Source: Xanthomonas albilineans
Lineage (GTDB): Bacteria > Pseudomonadota > Gammaproteobacteria > Xanthomonadales > Xanthomonadaceae
Assembly (NCBI RefSeq): GCF_002939705.1
Contig: NZ_MDCB01000001.1
Location: 1-64,000, forward strand
Reading direction: 5' to 3'
Length of the DNA: 64,000 nucleotides
Made by a program: the position numbers and the translations under genes. The notes under the pieces are model-generated. The model searched no databases. It saw nothing but the letters and a program-made list of their open reading frames with translations, and was not told the DNA's origin. Positions 8,056 through 43,981 of this stretch are shown here, piece by piece. Position 1 is the first letter of the stretch. Each line of letters starts with the position of its first letter.

Positions 8056-8874
8056 ATGAGCAGCCACGCCGACAGCAAGCCCTGGACCGTTCCCGCCCTG
8101 GCCGATGCCAAGCGCCGCCAGCAGAAGCTGGTGATGTTGACGGCCTACGATGCCGGCTTCGCCCGCGTGTTCGACGCCAGTGGCGTGGACATGATCCTGA
8201 TCGGCGATTCGCTGGGCATGGTGGTGCAGGGCCACGATTCGACCCTTCCTGTCAGTGTGGACGATATCGCCTACCACACCGCGGCGGTGGCGCGGGTGTT
8301 GCAACGGGCGCTGCTGGTCGCCGACCTGCCGTTCCAGTCCGATGCCACGCCCGAACGTGCCTTGGATGCGGCGACACGGCTGTTGCAGGCCGGGGCGGAA
8401 ATGGTCAAGTTGGAAGGTGCCGGTTACAAGCTCGAGGTGATCCGTTTCCTTAGCGAACGCGATATCCCGGTCTGCGCGCATCTGGGGCTGACCCCGCAAT
8501 CGGTGTTGACCTTCGGCGGTTATAAGGTACAGGGCCGCGAGGCCGCCGCCGCCGCCAAACTGCGCGAGGATGCCAACGCCGTGGCTGCCGCCGGCGCCGC
8601 GCTGGTGGTGCTGGAATGCGTGCCGTCGCCGCTGGCCGCACGCATCACCGCCGAGCTGACCATTCCCACGATCGGCATCGGCGCCGGCCCCGGGTGCGAC
8701 GGCCAGGTGTTGGTGATGCACGACTTTCTCGGTCTGGACAGCGGTCACCGCCGTCCGCGCTTCGTCAAGGATTTCCTGGCCGAAGGCGGCTCTGTCGCCG
8801 GTGCGGCGCGCGCGTATGCCGAGGCGGTACGCGCCGGGACTTTCCCCGACGCCGAACACGCCTACGCCCAATGA
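8056..8874 (+). CDS. panB: 3-methyl-2-oxobutanoate hydroxymethyltransferase
   Basis: Transfers a hydroxymethyl group from methylene-tetrahydrofolate to ketoisovalerate, giving ketopantoate for coenzyme A synthesis. Its 272 residues include [32 protein letters not shown], the catalytic Glu in HLGLTPQSV and the [14 protein letters not shown] loop. The ATG at 8056 gives the usual family length. The stop overlaps the panC start (ATGA). Confidence 0.96.
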
Positions 8875-9710
8875 TCCAGACCATCACCGAACTGGCGAGC
8901 TTGCGAGCGGTCGTCAGTGATTGGAAGCGGCAGGGCCTGCGCGTGGCCTTTGTCCCGACCATGGGCAATCTGCACCCGGGGCATTTCTCGCTGGTGACCT
9001 TGGCCCGGCAGCAGGCCGACCGCGTGGTGTCCAGCGTGTTCGTCAATCCGACCCAGTTCGGGCCAAACGAGGACTTCACCCGCTACCCGCGCACGCCCGA
9101 GGCCGACACCAGCGGGCTGTACCAAGCCGGTTGCGACGTACTGTGGCTGCCGACCGTGGAGAGCATGTATCCCTTGGGCGTGGAGCTGGCCTTGCGTATG
9201 CATACCCCGGGTGTGAGCGAGGTGCTGGAAGGCGCGTGCCGTCCCGGTCATTTCGATGGCGTCTGCACGGTGGTCGCGCGTCTGTTCAACCAGGTGCAGC
9301 CTGACTTGGCCGTGTTCGGCAAAAAGGATTATCAACAACTGGCGGTGATCCGGCAGATGGTCGCCGACCTCGCATTCCCGATCCAGATCATCGGCGGGGC
9401 CATCGTGCGCGATGCCGACGGCCTGGCGATGAGCTCGCGTAACCAGTATCTGTCCGCCGAGGAGCGGCCGCGCGCGGCGCACATCCACCGCACCCTGCAG
9501 GCGATGCGCGAGGGCCATCTGGCCGGGCTTGCGCGCGCGCAGGTGGAGGCGGCGGCGGCCGCGCAGTTGCAGGCGGTTGGTTTCGAGGTGGATTACACGG
9601 TGCTGCGCCGGCCCGACCTGAGCGAACCGCAGGATCGGGCCGGCCCGCGCGTGGCGCTGATCGCCGCGCGCCTGGGGCGGACCCGGTTGATCGACAACCT
9701 GGAGTTCTGA
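8871..9710 (+). CDS. panC: Pantothenate synthetase
   Basis: Condenses pantoate and beta-alanine using ATP. The 279-residue protein carries the adenylate-forming motifs [16 protein letters not shown] and [15 protein letters not shown], then [12 protein letters not shown] and MSSRNQYLS. It is translationally coupled to panB by a 4-base overlap. panD follows 95 bases later with its own leader. Confidence 0.96.
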
Positions 9711-36415: not shown

Positions 36416-36757
36416 ATGGCTTCAATCGCAGAACGCATCCGCTTAGCCCGCAATGATCGAGGCCTCTCTCAAACGGAACTATCAAGACTCCTTGGCGTCA
36501 ATCGCGCAACGGTTGGACACTGGGAAAGTGGCGAAAGCTTTGCGCCCAACCTTCAACATCTTCATTCGCTTAGTCTTGTACTGGAAGTCACGATCGACTG
36601 GCTCACCAGTGGTGATGAAGAAGCATCCCGAGCGGCTTCTCCGAACACTTCAAGATCTCATCTCGAAGGCAGAATGCTCGACCTCTCTAAGCACCTTCCC
36701 GTTTCATTCCTGGCCAGTGTTGTCGCGCTGTTGGAGAAAGCTGAGTTCTATCTCTAA
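36416..36757 (+). CDS. XRE-family transcriptional regulator upstream of the RiPP-like operon
   Basis: A 113-residue protein with an N-terminal helix-turn-helix: ERIRLARNDRGLSQTELSRL, then VNRATVGHWESGESF, then IDWLTSGDEE, as in Cro/CI-type repressors. The C-terminal 45 residues (LEGRMLDLSKHLPVSFLASV) have no known family. The ATG at 36416 follows GGAGGTG at 36401-36407, a strong ribosome site. It lies 151 bases before the first precursor gene on the same strand, so control of that operon is plausible; an inherited phage repressor is the alternative. Confidence 0.82.
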   Translation: MASIAERIRLARNDRGLSQTELSRLLGVNRATVGHWESGESFAPNLQHLHSLSLVLEVTIDWLTSGDEEASRAASPNTSRSHLEGRMLDLSKHLPVSFLASVVALLEKAEFYL

Positions 36758-36813
36758 GGCGAGCCGATGTGGTGCTTCTGTCGCTGCTGTGCGCAGCACA
36801 GCAAGGGGTTTGA

Positions 36814-36840
36814 TTGACACTTCCAACTGGCTTTACATTA
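36814..36840 (+). promoter_or_regulatory. Candidate promoter of the RiPP-like operon
   Basis: A consensus -35 TTGACA (36814-36819) lies in the gap before the first precursor gene. The -10 is weak; TACATT (36834-36839) is closer than the ideal spacing. This fits a regulated promoter but is only a candidate. Confidence 0.35.
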
Positions 36841-36908
36841 GGGGGGCGAGTGAGGCCGAAGTCAAAGGGTTTCATCGCATAACCCTCAATGTCAAAGGAA
36901 GGAATGAA

Positions 36909-37205
36909 ATGAGCAAGAGCATCACCAACAAGGCGATCTCGTCCTTGGCCCTGATCATCGCCGGTGCAGCCGGGTCGGCCTCAGCTTCGGAAGCGCCCTC
37001 GGTCGCTACTCACAATCTCGAATCGTCTACGGCAATCAATGCCGATCTCGACAGTCTGCGCATGGCTGAGTTCGCTTCACCCGAGTCGCTTCTGGCCGCC
37101 GCAGATGGTCACCATTCTGATTCGATTGGCTCGCATCATCACCACACCATTGCCAGCACAGATGGCGTGAAAGTGGCTGACACAGCCTCGCGCTTCGATG
37201 TTTGA
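36909..37205 (+). CDS. RiPP-like precursor peptide 1 (signal-type leader, His-rich block)
   Basis: A 98-residue peptide. Residues 5-26 form a hydrophobic, Sec-like leader ending in an Ala-Ser-Ala site (GSASA). After a variable stretch come RMAEF, then LLAAADGHHSDSIGSHHHH at 61-79, then TIAS, a spacer and the C-terminus RFDV. The ribosome site AAAGGAAGGA is strong. A paralogue follows directly and shares the leader type, MxEF, the His block and RFDV. It lies upstream of a putative peptide-modifying enzyme, a methyltransferase and permeases. The function and the modified residues are inferred; the His/Asp block could bind metal. Confidence 0.82.
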   Translation: MSKSITNKAISSLALIIAGAAGSASASEAPSVATHNLESSTAINADLDSLRMAEFASPESLLAAADGHHSDSIGSHHHHTIASTDGVKVADTASRFDV

Positions 37206-37246
37206 TTGTTCGCTGCCATTTTTCATTAAAGGACCAATCGCTCGCT

Positions 37247-37558
37247 ATGAATGACCATCGCAATCTCACCAAAACCCTCTCCGCGCTGACATTGCTCGTT
37301 GTGGGCTCAACCGCAGGCGTTGCCATGGCTGGAATGAATGCGGACCCGAGCGCCAACGCTGCGCTTGAAACCGCTGTGTCGTTGACCTCACTTAACGATC
37401 TGGCGATGGATGAGTTCGACCAAGCTGCAAGGGCCAACAATCTTTTGGTCGCCGCTGATGGCCATCACGACGACTCCATCGGCTCGCATCACCATCATGC
37501 CATCGCCTCGGCAACGACGGCCTATCGCGAGGCCGAATCGGGTCGCTTCGACGTTTAA
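37247..37558 (+). CDS. RiPP-like precursor peptide 2 (paralogue)
   Basis: A 103-residue paralogue of the preceding peptide. The hydrophobic leader (TLSALTLLVVGSTAGVAMA) has a signal-peptidase-like AMA end near residue 28. It has MDEF at 54-57, AADGHHDDSIGSHHHH at 69-84, AIAS, and the C-terminus RFDV. Within the 20-codon block shared with peptide 1, 18 amino acids agree but 12 of those use different codons, so the protein sequence has been selectively kept. It starts 41 bases after peptide 1 at an ATG behind AAAGGA. Confidence 0.82.
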   Translation: MNDHRNLTKTLSALTLLVVGSTAGVAMAGMNADPSANAALETAVSLTSLNDLAMDEFDQAARANNLLVAADGHHDDSIGSHHHHAIASATTAYREAESGRFDV

Positions 37559-37570
37559 TTTCAGCGTGAT

Positions 37571-37599
37571 CGCCGAGGGGGCATGGGGTCCCCTCGGCG
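37571..37599 (+). terminator. Hairpin between precursor genes and modification genes
   Basis: A perfect 10-bp stem, CGCCGAGGGG (37571-37580) with CCCCTCGGCG (37590-37599), and a 9-base loop. It has no T-run, so partial termination or 3'-end stabilisation of the precursor mRNA is likelier than full termination. This would let the peptides be made in excess over the enzymes. Confidence 0.6.
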
Positions 37600-37630
37600 T
37601 GAGTCAAGACTGCTCAGGGAGTGAGGTGCT

Positions 37631-38872
37631 ATGAATGCTGTATTGGATAGCCAAAGCGTTGAAATTAGTCGTCCACTTTGCCTCATGGAACTCACCACGG
37701 CGTCTGTTCATACCGATGAGGTGATGGAGGGCATCATGTGGGCGCGGTTGAACCGCATGCGCATGCGTCTCCAGGAGGTGTTGAAGGGGCGAGGTGCCGA
37801 AACTTTTCTCGAAGCGATCTATCAGCTTTATATATCTATTCCGCCAGACCGCCAGGCGCGTCTGCTTCTAAGCTCAGAATTTTGCGAATGCTACCTGGCC
37901 ATTGAAGCTGCACAGCGCAAAATCAGCACTGGAAGGTCTGATCAACAAGATGTCTGGGAATTGGCGCGAAATTTTTCGCTTCTCTACGACCTGGTTTGTC
38001 GCGAACATGCCATTGACGAGCTGAGCAAAGGTCGTGTGAGCAAGTATCTGGCTGAGTCGCGCCAGTGGCAGGTTTACAGTCCCCTTGGTGACACTTATGC
38101 CAATCGATCAAGTGCGGGCAGCTGGAATCTTGAGAAGGTTCCAAGTGTGGGTGAGTGCATTGCGGTTGACTTTGATAGTCCCGTTGCTACGAACTACGAG
38201 CCGCGATCAGGTGTGCTAAGTCAGGCCTACTTGCCGCTCGACGATTCCGAACGCAGTGCGGTGCGCACGAAAATCGCCGAAAGTCTGCGTTTGATCGACG
38301 AATCGGAGCCGCTTTATGGCTTGATCATCCGGAATTTCGTCAGGCGCATCGTTGTGCGCAAGTCGCAAGAGCGATCTGATCAAGGCCCTAAGCACTACGG
38401 GTCCGAGCATGTTCCACGGCAGCCCGGTTCGCTCAGACTACTCAACATCCATCGGGATGAACTCAGCGTCGAAGCGTGCATGGAGAGCTTAATGCACGAG
38501 AGCACGCATAATTTCCTCGCTGCTTGGGAGATTGCTCACGGCTTTTTCGTCGCCAACGACTACAAGCATCGCGTAGTTTCTCCTTGGTCTGGAAATCAGA
38601 TCCCGAATTCCTCGTTCATTCACGCGGTCTTTGTTTACTACATCTGCCACCGTCTTCTGAGAAGTCATCTGGCAAGATCAAAGGACCTTGCTGAAAGTGC
38701 GGTTGCACATGTCCACAAGCGATTGGCAGTTTGTGCGTCGGGATTTCTCATTCAGCAACCTCTGAGCCAGCGCCTGATGTCCACGGCACCGCTAAACTAC
38801 GACATTGGCAGCATGGTCGACATGATGCAGTCAGACATGCAGCGCCAATACGGATATGAGGCAGCGGTATGA
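37631..38872 (+). CDS. HExxH-motif protein, putative peptide beta-hydroxylase
   Basis: A 413-residue cytoplasmic protein without signal peptide. Its C-terminal half has H289-E-S-T-H293 in SLMHESTHNFLAAWE, followed about 40 residues later by SPWSGNQIPNSSFIHAVFVYY. That arrangement of HExxH, Pro/Gly-rich loop and a downstream His resembles the HEXXH-motif putative peptide-modification family, some members of which are 2-oxoglutarate-dependent peptide beta-hydroxylases. A zinc protease is the alternative. The N-terminal half (about 250 residues) is unassigned and may bind the leader. It starts 72 bases after the precursors and overlaps the next gene by four bases. Confidence 0.75.
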   Translation: MNAVLDSQSVEISRPLCLMELTTASVHTDEVMEGIMWARLNRMRMRLQEVLKGRGAETFLEAIYQLYISIPPDRQARLLLSSEFCECYLAIEAAQRKISTGRSDQQDVWELARNFSLLYDLVCREHAIDELSKGRVSKYLAESRQWQVYSPLGDTYANRSSAGSWNLEKVPSVGECIAVDFDSPVATNYEPRSGVLSQAYLPLDDSERSAVRTKIAESLRLIDESEPLYGLIIRNFVRRIVVRKSQERSDQGPKHYGSEHVPRQPGSLRLLNIHRDELSVEACMESLMHESTHNFLAAWEIAHGFFVANDYKHRVVSPWSGNQIPNSSFIHAVFVYYICHRLLRSHLARSKDLAESAVAHVHKRLAVCASGFLIQQPLSQRLMSTAPLNYDIGSMVDMMQSDMQRQYGYEAAV

Positions 38873-39750
38873 ACGCAAGGACTGTCGTGCTTTACTCAGA
38901 TCGGAACGACCCGGTTGCATTGAAGGCACTCGATAAGGCGAGCGCAGAGATTGCTTGCATCCATGTTGACCAGTTGATTCCGCTCTTGGGCCGCCAAGAT
39001 TGGCCCAAGGTGCTCGACATGACGACAACAGCGGATATCGAAGCAGTGTTTTCGGGCGCTAAAATCATCAACCGTGCCTTCACCCTATCTGGCACTGAGC
39101 TTTCATCTTGCTTGTCCGCCTGGGGCGTCGATGAGTGCTGGTTTCATATCCGCTTACAAGATCTATTGAAGCTTGGAAGAAGCGTATCGTATGACACCGG
39201 AGTTAGAGGCGTGTCGCGCTCGCTGCTCCCGCTGAACGCGCAATGGTTTGAGATGAGGCGCTCTTTGCCTGATCTGCTAACTCCCGCTTTCGAGTATGGC
39301 TTTGGCTACGAGCATCCTGACATCTCAGCTTTGGCGTCTCCGTTGCAAAAATCGGTGTGGTCGCTCTTCGATTGGAAAGTGGAACGACAGTTGAGTCCTG
39401 ATGAGGCCAAGCGACATCAGTTCTTCGTGGAGGCCCCGCGTGGCGTGCCATTGATCGCTTATTTTGCGGGGGATGCTTTGGAGGTACTTTGGCCCCGAGA
39501 GCGCGTAGGTGTGGACCTTGGGCAGGTCAGGGAAGTGGTTGGCGCTGCCAGACGCGTTTTCTGTGCTGAGGCTGGTGAAGTGCTGCTCTATGCAGAAGAC
39601 CAAGCGTTGCGCTTTTATGCGTTTTCACCCCATCTACTCTCGGTGGCAGAAGAGCCCACATTCCAAGTGATGCTGAGCAATTGGCTGTTGCCCCCTCATT
39701 TTGACGCTGTAAGGAGCCTCGCCGATGCTGCGCCTCGGATCATCCATTGA
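38869..39750 (+). CDS. Unrecognised 293-residue protein of the RiPP-like operon
   Basis: A soluble protein with no signal peptide or clear catalytic motif. The first 40 residues (TVVLYSDRNDPVALKALDKA, then IACIHVDQLI) look like a Rossmann-type start, as in the pre-ATP domain of ATP-grasp peptide ligases; KIINRAF and FFVEAPRGVPLIAYFAGDAL recall parts of that fold. The glycine-rich and metal sites of a true ATP-grasp were not found, so this is only a hint. It overlaps the HExxH gene by 4 bases and the methyltransferase by 26, so it belongs to the operon. Confidence 0.7.
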   Translation: MNARTVVLYSDRNDPVALKALDKASAEIACIHVDQLIPLLGRQDWPKVLDMTTTADIEAVFSGAKIINRAFTLSGTELSSCLSAWGVDECWFHIRLQDLLKLGRSVSYDTGVRGVSRSLLPLNAQWFEMRRSLPDLLTPAFEYGFGYEHPDISALASPLQKSVWSLFDWKVERQLSPDEAKRHQFFVEAPRGVPLIAYFAGDALEVLWPRERVGVDLGQVREVVGAARRVFCAEAGEVLLYAEDQALRFYAFSPHLLSVAEEPTFQVMLSNWLLPPHFDAVRSLADAAPRIIH

Positions 39751-40519
39751 GCAGCTTCTTCGAATTCGGGAGGAGATGGGTTGGCTTTACGGAAGCGAAG
39801 ATCTCTGCGTATTGCTTTACAGCTTGGTCAAGCGAGAAAAGCCGGCCATGGTCGTGGAGCTTGGAACAGGGCTGGGGGTTTCTACGGCTTGGATAGCGGC
39901 CGCGATGAAGGAGGCCGGAAGGGGTGTTTTGCACACCTATGACAACGGGTCTCATTACATCAGTGAGCCTTCAAAGAAGTTCCTCAGTGGTCTGTCTGAA
40001 CCCCTGAACTCGTTTGCAAACCTGCGAGATGGCTTGGATGGCTTCAATGCCTTCATCGGAAGTTTGCTGTCGTGGGTGGGGGCGGAGGAGCATGTGGTTG
40101 TTCACCTGGGCGATATCGCGATGGGTGAAGTGGCATCGGATGATGCGTTTCAATCGGGGGTCGACATGGTGTTCTCGGACTTCAATCACTCGCCTGAGAG
40201 CATCCAGGCGTTGCTTGGCGCTTTTCTTCCGGTCATGCGGGAGACCTCGTCTATTTTCATTGATAGCGCTTCAACGCATCGGCTGAGCTACCTGGCACTT
40301 GAAAAGATTGTGGAGCATCTTAACCAGGGGCGATTGCCCGCAGGGCTCACCAAGGGGCTGGATGAGCTTGGCGTTCAGCACCTCGAAACAAGGGTGAGGC
40401 GCTCGTCGTTTCGCCTCATGCACCTGACCGAAACGAGCGATCGCGCTCAAAACAGCACTGCCTGGGTGAGGATCGAGCCCATCGATATTCAGGCAGCGGG
40501 TGTGAAATTTTTCCACTAG
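39725..40519 (+). CDS. SAM-dependent methyltransferase of the RiPP-like operon
   Basis: A 264-residue class I methyltransferase. Motif I is MVVELGTGLGVSTAWIAAAM, motif II region is LHTYDNGSHY, and VDMVFSDFNHSPESI is the acidic strand-4 motif. The layout matches the Methyltransf_24/O-methyltransferase group. Its substrate is presumably the precursor peptide, for instance a carboxylate, hydroxyl or imidazole, but this is inferred only from the operon. The start lies within the preceding gene; its stop directly abuts the first permease ATG. Confidence 0.8.
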   Translation: MLRLGSSIEQLLRIREEMGWLYGSEDLCVLLYSLVKREKPAMVVELGTGLGVSTAWIAAAMKEAGRGVLHTYDNGSHYISEPSKKFLSGLSEPLNSFANLRDGLDGFNAFIGSLLSWVGAEEHVVVHLGDIAMGEVASDDAFQSGVDMVFSDFNHSPESIQALLGAFLPVMRETSSIFIDSASTHRLSYLALEKIVEHLNQGRLPAGLTKGLDELGVQHLETRVRRSSFRLMHLTETSDRAQNSTAWVRIEPIDIQAAGVKFFH

Positions 40520-41839
40520 ATGCAGGGTGCAATGTTTAGCTACTACCTGACTTTGGCAAAGCAAAACATCTTGGCGTCAAAGGTGATGACCCTGGCGCTG
40601 GCGGTTGCACTTGCTTTGGGTGTTGGTGCAAGCATGACAATGCTCACGGTAGTTCGGGTGCTGTCATGGGACCCCATGCCAGGTCGCAGCACTCACTTGT
40701 TTCACCCCTACTTCGATCCTTTGCCTCGCTCTTATGAAGCGAAAGCCTCGCTCGATCCCCGCAACTCAGTGAGTTGGGTCGATGCCAAAGAGATCATGCG
40801 CAGACTTCCGGCACCGTCGAGCGCTGCCATGGCCACAGGTCACCTGCTTGTGGCGGCACAGAATGGGGTAGATGCGCCATTTTTTGTTGATGGCCAGTAT
40901 GCAACCCCCGACATTTTTGGCATGTTTGGGATTGATCTGATCCAGGGTAGATCTTGGACCGAAGACGAGGAGCTGTCACGAGCTGCGCTAGTGGTGATCA
41001 GTGAGTCTTTTAGAAAACGCCTCGGGCAAGCGGGTGAAGTCGGAAAAATCCTGCAATTGGGTTCAAAAGCGTTTCGCATCGTGGGCATTTCGCGCAACTG
41101 GGCACCGATGCCGCGCTTCCACACTGATCTGCAAAAGGATACTTTCAGGGGGCAAGACGATTTCTTCATTCCCCTCCACACAGCAATTGACGACAGGCTC
41201 AGTGTCAGTTCGAGCATGTTCTCGTGGGAGCAGGGCGAGGAGTCCAATAAGATGGAAAGCCCCTCAACCGCTTGGTTGCAATTTTGGGTCTATCTTGAAG
41301 ATCGGGCCGCGCAACAACGCTATGCGGAGCAGCTCCAAAGCTATGTGGAGCAGCAAGCAAATAGTGGCCGCTTTGAGCGGCGCAGCCCAGCTCGCTTGGA
41401 AGGGCTTGAAGCTTTTCTGATCCGGCGTCAGGTGGTGCCAGATGATGTGAAGCTCCAATTGGCATTGGCCATTGGCTTCTTGATTGTCTGCATGGTCAAC
41501 ATCTGCGCGCTGCTCTTTTCACGTTTCATTCGGCGAACCCATGAAGTGGCGGTGCGACGGGCGCTGGGGGCTCGCAGGATCGATATCTTGGCGCAGCTTT
41601 GCACCGAAGCGCTCCTGATCGGGGTGCTCGGAGGGCTAGGCGCACTGGTCGTCTGTCAAGTTGGGCTATCGGTGGTTAGAGCGCAGCCGGAAGACTACGC
41701 GGCGTTAGCGCACCTGGATCCGACCATGGTGGCAGCAACCTTGGCTTTCGCCTGCCTATCGAGCCTCGCCGCTGCCGCGCTACCGGCCTTCCGAACCGCT
41801 TCTGGTCGAACAGCCATGCAAATCAAGGTTGCAGAATGA
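40520..41839 (+). CDS. FtsX/MacB-type ABC permease 1
   Basis: A 439-residue inner-membrane protein with the four-helix MacB/FtsX plan: TM1 at about 20-45, a large periplasmic domain (about 50-300, including RIVGISRNWAPMP as in MacB_PCD), then three C-terminal helices with the RFIRRTHEVAVRRALGARRI coupling motif. No ATP-binding domain is fused or encoded nearby. The ATG at 40532 (MFSYYL) is an alternative start. It is paired with a second permease, as in heterodimeric FtsX-type exporters. Confidence 0.88.
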   Translation: MQGAMFSYYLTLAKQNILASKVMTLALAVALALGVGASMTMLTVVRVLSWDPMPGRSTHLFHPYFDPLPRSYEAKASLDPRNSVSWVDAKEIMRRLPAPSSAAMATGHLLVAAQNGVDAPFFVDGQYATPDIFGMFGIDLIQGRSWTEDEELSRAALVVISESFRKRLGQAGEVGKILQLGSKAFRIVGISRNWAPMPRFHTDLQKDTFRGQDDFFIPLHTAIDDRLSVSSSMFSWEQGEESNKMESPSTAWLQFWVYLEDRAAQQRYAEQLQSYVEQQANSGRFERRSPARLEGLEAFLIRRQVVPDDVKLQLALAIGFLIVCMVNICALLFSRFIRRTHEVAVRRALGARRIDILAQLCTEALLIGVLGGLGALVVCQVGLSVVRAQPEDYAALAHLDPTMVAATLAFACLSSLAAAALPAFRTASGRTAMQIKVAE

Positions 41840-43083
41840 GCATCTCTGAGATCCCGGTCATTGCGCGCAGCCTCAGACGGCATCGGTTTATTTCTGCTAT
41901 TTTTCTCTTGCAGATCATCATCACCACGGCGGTCATTAGCAATGTTTCCTCATTGCTGGCTGATCGGGTTGAACTTCTGACCTACCAGACAGGACTGGGT
42001 GAAGGGGGGCTTGGCATTGTCGAGACCGAGTTCCTCGGTGAAGGAAGCGATGACGCACGGCCCAAGGTGCTTGCTGATTTGCAGCGCATTCGCGAGGTGC
42101 CAGGAGTTCAAAATGTCGCCGCCGTTGAAGCGCTGCCATTGAGTCAAAACAACTGGACCGTTGGCATCACCAACAAGCTTCCAGACCGAAACGATCTTCG
42201 CGGTGTGATTGAAGCAGAGCCATCCGTTTATAGCGTTTCACCCGGTGCACTGCAAACGCTTGGCATCGCACTTTCGGCTGGACGCGATTTCTCGCCTGAT
42301 GCCTATGTTCCCATGGTCGCGAGCAATGACTACTCAGGGCTTTATGACGCGGGTGAGGTCATCATCTCAAAGGCCTTAGCGCAGGCGCTGTTTCCAGGAG
42401 AGAGTGCGCTTGGTAGGGCGATCTTTGTCGATGGCAAGCATCCGGTTCACATCGTAGGCGTTGCTGACCATTTGTCCCGCCCGCTTCTGGGAAGCGGTCA
42501 AGGCAATGATGTGTCGATGCTCTTGCCGTTGGTTCCGGATGCCAAGCGTGTGATTTATGCTATCCGAAGTGACCCCGATCGATTGAACAGTGTGCTGAGC
42601 GATGCAGAGGCAGGGATCCGAGCCCTGGATCGAAATCGAATGACTCCTCGGGTCATGAGCTACGAGGCGCTTCGCCACGGCTACTTCCGGCGTGATCGAA
42701 TGATGGCTTACCTCTTTCTCGCAGCTGGCGCCTCATTAGTGGTAGTCACTGGGATTGGAGTCTACGGCTTGGTGAGCTTTTGGGTTCGCCAGCGCTACCG
42801 ATACATCGGGATTCGTCGATCGCTGGGCGCGCGCTCCATCGACATCAGTCGGTATTTCATGACGGAGAACATGCTTTTAACGGTCGTGGGTGCGGGAGTC
42901 GGGAGCGGTCTGGCGGCGGCATTGAGCATGTGGGTCTCCGCTCACTACGGTGCCCCGAAGCTGCCTGGCGCATTCCTCATCGCTGGCTTTGTTTTGGTTT
43001 GCGCGCTTGGTCAGCTTGCCGCCTGGCTCCCTGCTCGCAAGGCAGCAAAGACTGCGCCCGTGGTCACGATGAGATCCGTATAG
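41836..43083 (+). CDS. FtsX/MacB-type ABC permease 2
   Basis: A 415-residue partner of the preceding permease, overlapping it by four bases. It has TM1 near 20-40, a periplasmic domain with VHIVGVADHLSRP, and three C-terminal helices including RQRYRYIGIRRSLGARSID as the ATPase-coupling motif. No MacA-like adaptor, ATPase or outer-membrane channel follows, so the transporter must borrow these from elsewhere. It ends the operon. Confidence 0.88.
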   Translation: MSISEIPVIARSLRRHRFISAIFLLQIIITTAVISNVSSLLADRVELLTYQTGLGEGGLGIVETEFLGEGSDDARPKVLADLQRIREVPGVQNVAAVEALPLSQNNWTVGITNKLPDRNDLRGVIEAEPSVYSVSPGALQTLGIALSAGRDFSPDAYVPMVASNDYSGLYDAGEVIISKALAQALFPGESALGRAIFVDGKHPVHIVGVADHLSRPLLGSGQGNDVSMLLPLVPDAKRVIYAIRSDPDRLNSVLSDAEAGIRALDRNRMTPRVMSYEALRHGYFRRDRMMAYLFLAAGASLVVVTGIGVYGLVSFWVRQRYRYIGIRRSLGARSIDISRYFMTENMLLTVVGAGVGSGLAAALSMWVSAHYGAPKLPGAFLIAGFVLVCALGQLAAWLPARKAAKTAPVVTMRSV

Positions 43084-43330: not shown

Positions 43331-43600
43331 ATGAACGGAGAAAGCAAAGCGTTAATCCAAGCGGCGATGCACATTAAAGACCATGCGGCCATCATCCAAC
43401 TGGTCCAGGCGGCGGAAGATCCATCGCGCTTTGCATGGGAGATCTTGGATCTGGCGGTCGAAGCCAGGGACGAGCCGCTCGTCGATGCTTTGCTCCCGCA
43501 CTTGAACAGCGTCTCGCATAGTTATCCTCTCATTCGGGCAGTGCAGCGCGGAACAGCATCGATTTTGAAGAAGCTGATCCGTTTGACCGAGCCGAACCTA
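43331..43600 (+). pseudogene. Ankyrin-like protein truncated by an IS element
   Basis: The first 90 residues read like helix-turn-helix repeats of an ankyrin type (KDHAAIIQLVQAAEDPS, VEARDEPLVDALLPHLN, YPLIRAVQRGTASILKKLI). The frame then runs into the terminal sequence of an IS5-type element at about 43601 and stops at 43648 with foreign residues. The start is intact, with a strong ribosome site. The rest of the gene is missing from the other side of the IS fragment. Confidence 0.6.
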
Positions 43601-43981
43601 GAGCGTGTTATGAACTTTGAAGTAGAGATGCCGCATTTCCGAGCATGAGGATGGTGAAAACGACGAAGTGAAGTCCTGCCAGTGTTTCAGGCAAGCGTTC
43701 GTCGTCACGGGCCAAGCTTCGGAACCGATTGAGCCAACCGAAACTGCGTTCCACGACCCAGCGATGCGGCAGCAGCACAAAGCCCTTCTTGGCCTCCGGC
43801 AGCTTCACGAAGTGCAGTTCGATGCCTTCCTCCCGCGCAGCTTCGGCCGGGTCTTTGCCGGTGTAGCCTTGATCGACGAAGGCGAGCTTCACCGTTTCGC
43901 CGGTGACATACTGGACTTCCTGCGCCAGCGAGCGCACCTGGGCCCGCTCCTGCTCGTTGGCCGGCGTGACCTGCCGACGCC
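43601..43981 (-). mobile_element. IS5-family element fragment (3' part)
   Basis: The element end is taken as GAGCGTGTTATGAACTTT at 43601, preceded by CTA, a possible TNA target. On the minus strand the transposase C-terminus is readable from [19 protein letters not shown] to the stop at 43608, including [17 protein letters not shown] and [19 protein letters not shown], typical of the DDE domain of IS5-group transposases. The similarity breaks at about 43981, so the 5' two thirds and the other terminal repeat are gone. It cannot move by itself. Confidence 0.85.

Follow-up and report, generated by a model that had tools for sequence, protein, structure and literature searches.

In the current analysis we have identified an operon (positions 36,416 to 43,083) in the first 64,000 nucleotides of contig NZ_MDCB01000001.1 of Xanthomonas albilineans (RefSeq assembly GCF_002939705.1; genome of 3.68 Mb), a stretch referred to here as the window. 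It encodes a regulator of the XRE type, two paralogous small peptides, a 413-residue protein with an HExxH motif, a 293-residue protein of unrecognised family, a class I S-adenosylmethionine (SAM) methyltransferase and two FtsX/MacB-type permeases. We file this system as a new family of ribosomally synthesised and post-translationally modified peptides (RiPPs) with Sec-type signals, built on an α-ketoglutarate (aKG) dependent HExxH enzyme, since no description of this gene combination was found in the literature, covered mainly as titles and beginnings of abstracts with few subscription papers, and since the known aKG-HExxH clusters differ from it; to call it a new class would need chemistry. 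It is highly probable that the peptides are RiPP precursors modified by the HExxH enzyme, and hydroxylation is the likely chemistry.

The operon is real and more than a chance arrangement, as its peptides have low ratios of nonsynonymous to synonymous substitution (dN/dS), their core is without amino-acid change and the operon recurs in other genomes. Between the window and X. hortorum (locus L017), whose HExxH protein is 91% identical to that of the window, dN/dS is 0.088 for peptide 1 and 0.115 for peptide 2; the same comparison gives 0.075 for the HExxH protein, 0.122 for the 293-residue protein and 0.100 for permease b. The 14-residue His/Asp core has no nonsynonymous change in either window/L017 pair (6 and 1 synonymous changes), and again none in the two L040/L041 pairs, with 5 and 0 synonymous changes. 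Judged from these substitutions, strong purifying selection acts on the genes of both peptides.

The precursors are organised as a Sec-type signal, a leader with a DxLxMxEF-like motif, the core GHHxDSIGSHHHH, a variable spacer and a terminal RFDV, and both window precursors are devoid of Cys. The signal region of each consists of a positive n-region, a hydrophobic stretch and a cleavage site of the A-x-A type; these are simple criteria rather than the output of a dedicated signal-peptide predictor, and at that level the signal-type leaders proposed in the original prediction are borne out. The C-terminus reads F-x-[V/I] in all 27 precursors of the family and F-[D/N]-V in 24 of them. For L013, L014 and L061 the precursor was chosen by eye among the open frames upstream of the enzyme, and for the other loci by similarity; two rows of the precursor alignment (L040:11916-12200 and L041:12200-12484) begin one codon past the Met.

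The family comprises 19 loci, namely the window, L009, L011 to L014, L017, L018, L037 to L046 and L061, repeat fetches such as L010 for L018 being uncounted. The operon of the window recurs in L017, L018, L011, L012 and L037 to L042, and L009 holds its start, cut by the contig end. All 19 loci have a precursor gene as the nearest upstream neighbour of the HExxH gene, and wherever the locus runs on (18 of 18) the gene for the 293-residue protein follows downstream, immediately in all but L014. The FtsX pair follows in 17 of 18, and was not found within the stretch of L014. Of the 18 complete loci, the 11 with the His/Asp core encode the methyltransferase and the seven with other cores do not; in L018 (10089-10889) its gene is broken by an in-frame stop, and in L017 (10089-10856) only 235 of 264 residues can be aligned with the product of the window and 211 bases separate the gene from that of the permease. 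The end of the L017 gene may be altered. XRE homologues are linked to the cluster, sometimes in divergent orientation, in L009, L011, L012, L017 and L037 to L042; no match was found in L018/L010, where the copy region contains a run of N, nor in the loci with other cores.

For loci found by profile this co-occurrence arises partly by construction, because their sequences or those of close kin sit in the profile. L061 was a new locus at the time of its detection: once the pattern had been established, a profile of the 293-residue protein run on 200 genomes of the order gave four matches, three known already and one (G1277) from another family of the order, and the DNA of the latter encodes, as expected, the FtsX pair, the 293-residue protein, the HExxH protein and an 88-residue peptide that begins with a signal-like segment and ends in SFDV. 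The original prediction had made its case depend on conserved co-occurrence of peptides and enzymes in other genomes, and the precursor, the HExxH protein and the 293-residue protein are indeed found together across genomes.

Apart from one viral contig of unclear host, the system was found only in the order to which the window belongs. Relatives of the HExxH protein are encoded in 7 of 297 genomes of the family, 3 of 20 Xanthomonas genomes, 12 of 91 genomes of a second genus (seven with His/Asp and five with Cys cores) and 1 of 20 of a third. A search with the single protein gave 3 of 369 genomes in the class, one of them with a distant HExxH protein (G329), and in the phylum 3 of 398 had relatives, all within the window's own family. 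The 293-residue protein was detected in 6 of the 297 family genomes, each of them one of the seven with the HExxH protein, and its profile in 1 of 185 genomes of the class draw, which is the window's own; misses are possible in the profile searches because only the best few first-look candidates were scored per genome (4 in the phylum, 8 in the family, 12 to 13 in the order and class). The seventh genome (G253) has a separate cluster (L015:7271-11057) with a radical SAM protein, two distant HExxH proteins and a small putative precursor, which resembles ChlB but with the domains on separate genes.

The viral contigs gave one HExxH relative, L009, where a 41.7-kb IMG/VR contig terminates in the start of a His/Asp-type operon (XRE, precursor and HExxH genes), possibly host DNA beside a prophage. 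No relatives of the 293-residue protein or the precursors were found in viral contigs, where a missing match is no proof of absence. Two Rhizobium plasmid records encode distant HExxH proteins; no plasmid relatives of precursor 1 or the 293-residue protein and no phage relatives of the HExxH protein were detected. The sequence search of the PDB returned only chance matches for the HExxH profile and for the 293-residue protein, and none for the methyltransferase. PADLOC returned helix-turn-helix (HTH) matches for the XRE protein and two weak partial matches, to the methyltransferase and permease a, and nothing for the HExxH or 293-residue proteins.

From the observed gene content and order, selection, co-occurrence, family resemblance of the enzyme and architecture of the precursors we infer every chemical, transport and functional step of the following pathway, which we hold with good confidence to be the probable one. 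The XRE protein would control transcription of the operon, and a hairpin behind the precursor genes would hold the level of precursor above that of the enzyme. In the cytosol the HExxH protein, probably in complex with the 293-residue protein, would act as an Fe(II)/aKG oxygenase, binding the precursor through the leader helix (DxLxMxEF), the C-terminal F-x-V tag or both, and Asp and/or His of the core would be β-hydroxylated. The methyltransferase would add methyl groups, probably on the core. The modified product would keep its Sec signal, be exported by Sec and be cut by signal peptidase; in the periplasm the MacB/FtsX-like permease pair would take it up with an ATPase supplied from elsewhere, and in some relatives an adjacent M3 peptidase could trim it. 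Binding of a transition metal is suggested tentatively as the likeliest function of the His/Asp-type product, at a little below even chances.

The permease pair matches TIGR03434 in two halves, permease a at positions 10-400 and permease b at 410-801, both under the cut-off, and no ABC ATPase, MacA or TolC was recognised among the operon proteins by the Pfam and NCBIfam scan. According to one report (PMC8277102), transporters of the MacB family draw their substrates from the periplasm, and the peptide STII, after its delivery by Sec, is exported through MacAB-TolC. The window shares with this system a permease of the MacB/FtsX type that is proposed to act on a peptide first moved by Sec, and differs in the split permease pair resembling the halves of ADOP and in that none of the operon proteins was recognised as an ATPase, MacA or TolC. 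An M3 peptidase (PF01432) with a signal-like start by eye is encoded beside 4 of the 11 complete His/Asp loci within the stretches examined, and no match to it was found in the window's own genome; we regard it as accessory, a candidate for a periplasmic trimming protease.

The same RiPP pathway could instead yield an antibacterial or signalling product, the FtsX pair serving in export or self-protection and metal binding being incidental. The handling of periplasmic peptides and toxins by the MacB/FtsX family, as exemplified by the Sec-exported enterotoxin STII (PMC8277102), is in keeping with such a product, as are the production of antibiotics, the biphenomycins, by another aKG-HExxH cluster (PMC12707348) and the patchy distribution in two genera (3/20 and 12/91 genomes). 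However, the His/Asp core is near-invariant between genera (17 of 20 precursors) and unchanged between the species compared, unlike what diversifying selection would give, and the Pfam and NCBIfam scan recognised no immunity or toxin gene among the operon proteins. We therefore consider a product of this kind somewhat unlikely.

The enzyme assignment of the preferred pathway is based on similarity to TIGR04267, which the 413-residue protein matches with an E-value of 2.7e-8 (34.0 bits, below the curated cut-off of 40) and three sister enzymes with 30.1 to 37.0 bits; for the published Os1350 an E-value of 9.3e-8 to this family is given in PMC7726476. The weak predicted model of the protein has a ChlB-HExxH-like fold, and its top PDB matches are ChlB-HExxH (8s5f) and SjiH (22ob), in a search where a missing match is no proof of absence. 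The HExxH motif and an SPW region are invariant in the 19 aligned members of the family; H289, E290, H293 and SPW are also common to the two relatives in L015, and SPW is in our reading typical of the aKG-HExxH family. By sequence and model the protein thus appears to fall with the aKG-HExxH peptide hydroxylases, in agreement with the original prediction of a peptide-modifying enzyme.

HExxH is the classic motif of the zincins, and a zinc metalloprotease of this type that cuts the secreted peptides or their leaders, with no oxidation, would account for it. PflC is also described, in PMC12636437, to hydrolyse when the leader is absent. Sequence and model nevertheless go with the aKG-HExxH oxygenases, and R243, N272, E300 and SPW, which extend beyond the protease motif, are common to the radical-SAM-adjacent relatives in the alignment. 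Further, no signal-like start is seen by eye in the enzyme, whereas its substrates have one. A protease is, on balance, quite improbable.

The 293-residue protein has no NCBIfam match and nothing above the Pfam cut-offs, one relative giving a chance match under cut-off. It is proposed to be a substrate-presenting partner of the HExxH enzyme, because no complete locus has the HExxH gene without it. The pairwise distances of the two proteins are correlated (r 0.96 over 17 loci), to which shared species history contributes. The AlphaFold model, with a mean confidence (pLDDT) of 37.6 from three near-identical rows, is unusable. An ATP-grasp origin, as in the ligases of graspetides, had been suspected by eye and was dropped because the hhalign probabilities of 1.0% and 0.3% against five ATP-grasp ligases are close to those against unrelated families (0.1-0.2%); in the second run the methyltransferase control was unreliable, its L041 row being out of frame, and the HExxH control was unaffected. 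The HExxH and 293-residue genes of L014 are separated by a small gene (8696-9097), the product of which starts like a signal peptide, matches PDZ weakly and is rich in Pro at its end.

Four types of core have been identified in the family. The His/Asp type of the window comprises 20 precursors in 12 loci, at most three per locus, of which 17 match GHH(H)xDS[IF]GSHHHH; the third paralogues of L038 and L039 and the precursor of L009 depart from this pattern. A Cys-containing core, CTxYSSGGT[HK]C, occurs in L013 and L043 to L046, a run of twelve consecutive Gln in L014 and the His/Trp/Tyr/Asp core HVDVDTGDGHWHYDP in L061. The enzyme tree places the 12 His/Asp members in a single supported group (95/99) and brings the five Cys-type members together at 80/99; the deeper order is unsure because several branches are long. 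The third paralogues of L038 (13464-13769) and L039 (12961-13266), situated past a divergently oriented XRE gene, have one Cys and the divergent core HNHSDSLD[TS]CHPHH. The sole precursor found in L018 (X. sp. GPE 39) resembles a hybrid of the start of peptide 1 and the end of peptide 2, and by its sequence looks as if two paralogues had recombined across the common core.

These cores bear on the suggestion that the peptides are unmodified His-rich metal chaperones of the periplasm and that the downstream genes serve another substrate. A conserved and probably secreted His-rich core would by itself explain metal binding, but the sister loci keep the enzyme pair, the signal and the F-x-[V/I] end and swap the core for Cys, poly-Gln or aromatic ones. 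A fixed enzyme pair and a fixed tag with variable cores is the behaviour of a RiPP, and unmodified chaperones are therefore very improbable.

Among the known systems, the aKG-HExxH β-hydroxylases (ChlB-HExxH 8s5f, BpmH/BipH, PflC/PosC and PesO) have in common with the window the HExxH motif, the similarity to TIGR04267, the predicted fold and a small precursor encoded beside the enzyme, and their reported targets include Asp, His and Gln. Their clusters (Chl, Bpm/Bip, Pfl/Pos and Pes) have radical SAM, MNIO or other neighbours in those parts of the published accounts that are available. Unlike them, the operon of the window gives no match to radical SAM or MNIO enzymes and includes the 293-residue companion, the methyltransferase and the FtsX pair, and its precursors have Sec-type signals and the F-x-[V/I] end. 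The pfl/pos systems of Pseudomonas (PflA/PosA with PflC/PosC) are alike in their stand-alone HEXXH enzyme, a core of consecutive Gln comparable to that of L014 and a conserved C-terminal tetrapeptide, ARMD there and RFDV in the window; they have an NHLP-type leader, an MNIO-nitroreductase and a GNAT protein, whereas the window has a Sec-type signal, the 293-residue protein and the FtsX pair.

The original prediction had drawn an analogy to the bufferins, which are defined, in PMC12452194, by MNIO enzymes, DUF2063 partners and Cys cores; the same text calls Sec signals highly unusual for precursors of bacterial RiPPs and names bufferins as the only ones for which their use has been proven by experiment. 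Bufferins and oxazolins, which are MNIO-modified, Sec-exported and metal-binding, resemble the window in the Sec-type signal, the predicted periplasmic product and the possible binding of metal, but differ in the superfamily and the partner of the enzyme and in the presence of Cys, absent from the window's core. A system of the bufferin/MNIO type, which the Sec-type signal of the precursors would favour, is most improbable, because no MNIO (PF05114) or DUF2063 match was found among the nine scanned proteins, the rest of the genome being unsearched for them, and the window's peptides have no Cys. The earlier interpretation is supported in part: the RiPP-like operon, the co-occurrence, the enzyme family and the leaders are upheld, and the bufferin comparison stands only as an analogy.

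The features of the operon are listed in the Table. All genes named in the original prediction were found in the same order on the + strand, with its overlapping or abutting junctions from the enzyme gene onward (overlap of 4, overlap of 26, abutting, overlap of 4 bases). The upstream gaps are 151 bases between XRE and peptide 1, 41 between the peptides and 72 between peptide 2 and the enzyme. Overlooked in the original prediction were the invariant F-x-[V/I] at the C-terminus of the precursors, the hairpin behind the last precursor gene, the resemblance of the enzyme to the aKG-HExxH fold and the sister types that differ in their cores.

Table. Features of the operon in the window, and of the M3 peptidase genes beside related loci
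Feature	Position	Strand	Evidence or remark
XRE/Cro-type regulator, 113 aa, probable operon regulator	36416..36757	+	HTH_3 E 3.8e-13 (Pfam)
Precursor peptide 1, 98 aa	36909..37205	+	Sec-type signal, leader DSLRMAEF, core GHHSDSIGSHHHH, C-terminal RFDV
His/Asp core of precursor 1, residues 67-80	37107..37148	+	0 nonsynonymous, 6 synonymous differences vs L017
C-terminal RFDV of precursor 1	37191..37202	+	F-x-[V/I] end in 27/27 family precursors
Precursor peptide 2, 103 aa	37247..37558	+	Sec-type signal, leader DLAMDEF, core GHHDDSIGSHHHH, C-terminal RFDV
His/Asp core of precursor 2, residues 72-85	37460..37501	+	0 nonsynonymous, 1 synonymous difference vs L017
C-terminal RFDV of precursor 2	37544..37555	+	F-x-[V/I] end in 27/27 family precursors
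G+C-rich hairpin without T tract, in the gap from the last precursor gene to the enzyme gene	37571..37599	+	Folding and shuffles
HExxH protein of 413 aa, a proposed peptide β-hydroxylase dependent on Fe(II)/aKG	37631..38872	+	
HESTH motif, residues 289-293 (H289-E-S-T-H293)	38495..38509	+	H289, E290, S291 and H293 invariant in 19 members
293-aa protein of no recognised family, suggested as an obligate partner to the HExxH enzyme	38869..39750	+	No library match; downstream in 18/18
Class I SAM methyltransferase	39725..40519	+	PF13578 E 2.7e-14; His/Asp core type only
FtsX/MacB-type permease a, ADOP first-half-like	40520..41839	+	PF12704 E 1.9e-20, PF02687 E 2.9e-10
FtsX/MacB-type permease b, ADOP second-half-like	41836..43083	+	PF02687 E 2.1e-16, PF12704 E 9.2e-12
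M3 peptidase	L017:13648-15450, L011:1442-3457, L041:13170-15086, L040:12886-14748		

The hairpin has a folding energy (dG) of -34.3 for the 72-base gap, and none of 200 dinucleotide shuffles is as stable. A strong stem after the stop of the last precursor is present in the 17 loci drawn and in L061 (-41.7 kcal/mol for the gap), the clearest stem of L038 and L039 lying further from the stop. In 11 of 16 stretches (first 75 bases at most) no more than 4 of 200 shuffles are as stable, and in the other five (L012, L037, L038, L040 and L042) 8 to 90 of 200; L045, with an ambiguous base, and L061 stand outside this test. The hairpin is probably an attenuator or a stabiliser of mRNA that keeps precursor above enzyme levels.

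In the window a transposase fragment (43608-43937) lies just 3' of the operon, and in X. hortorum a transposase gene (L017:6017-6997) separates the XRE gene from those of the precursors, which suggests mobility or decay nearby. A short ankyrin-like open frame (43331-43648; Ank_2 E 8.6e-4, under the curated cut-off) is also found just 3' of the operon, and in L037 (3134-5830) a protein with the X-Tfes XVIPCD domain (PF20410, E 2e-12) adjoins it.

A reading as a new RiPP class, which is possible and which we put forward with some reserve, is that the pair of HExxH and 293-residue proteins oxidises interchangeable cores (His/Asp, Cys/His, poly-Gln and aromatic/His/Asp), guided by F-x-[V/I]-COOH, ahead of Sec export. 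The His/Asp product would then be a metallophore of hydroxylated and methylated His, and the tag may be lost by oxidation in the way that PosC removes ARMD.

If the proposed pathway is true, it would add a family of Sec-exported RiPPs made without MNIO enzymes, and the aKG-HExxH enzymes would gain a recurrent partner of uncharacterised fold. The loci would also constitute a natural experiment in which the enzyme pair and the tag are fixed while the core varies, making substrate recognition by HExxH enzymes directly testable, and they could reveal a Cys-free, His-based metal-binding peptide.

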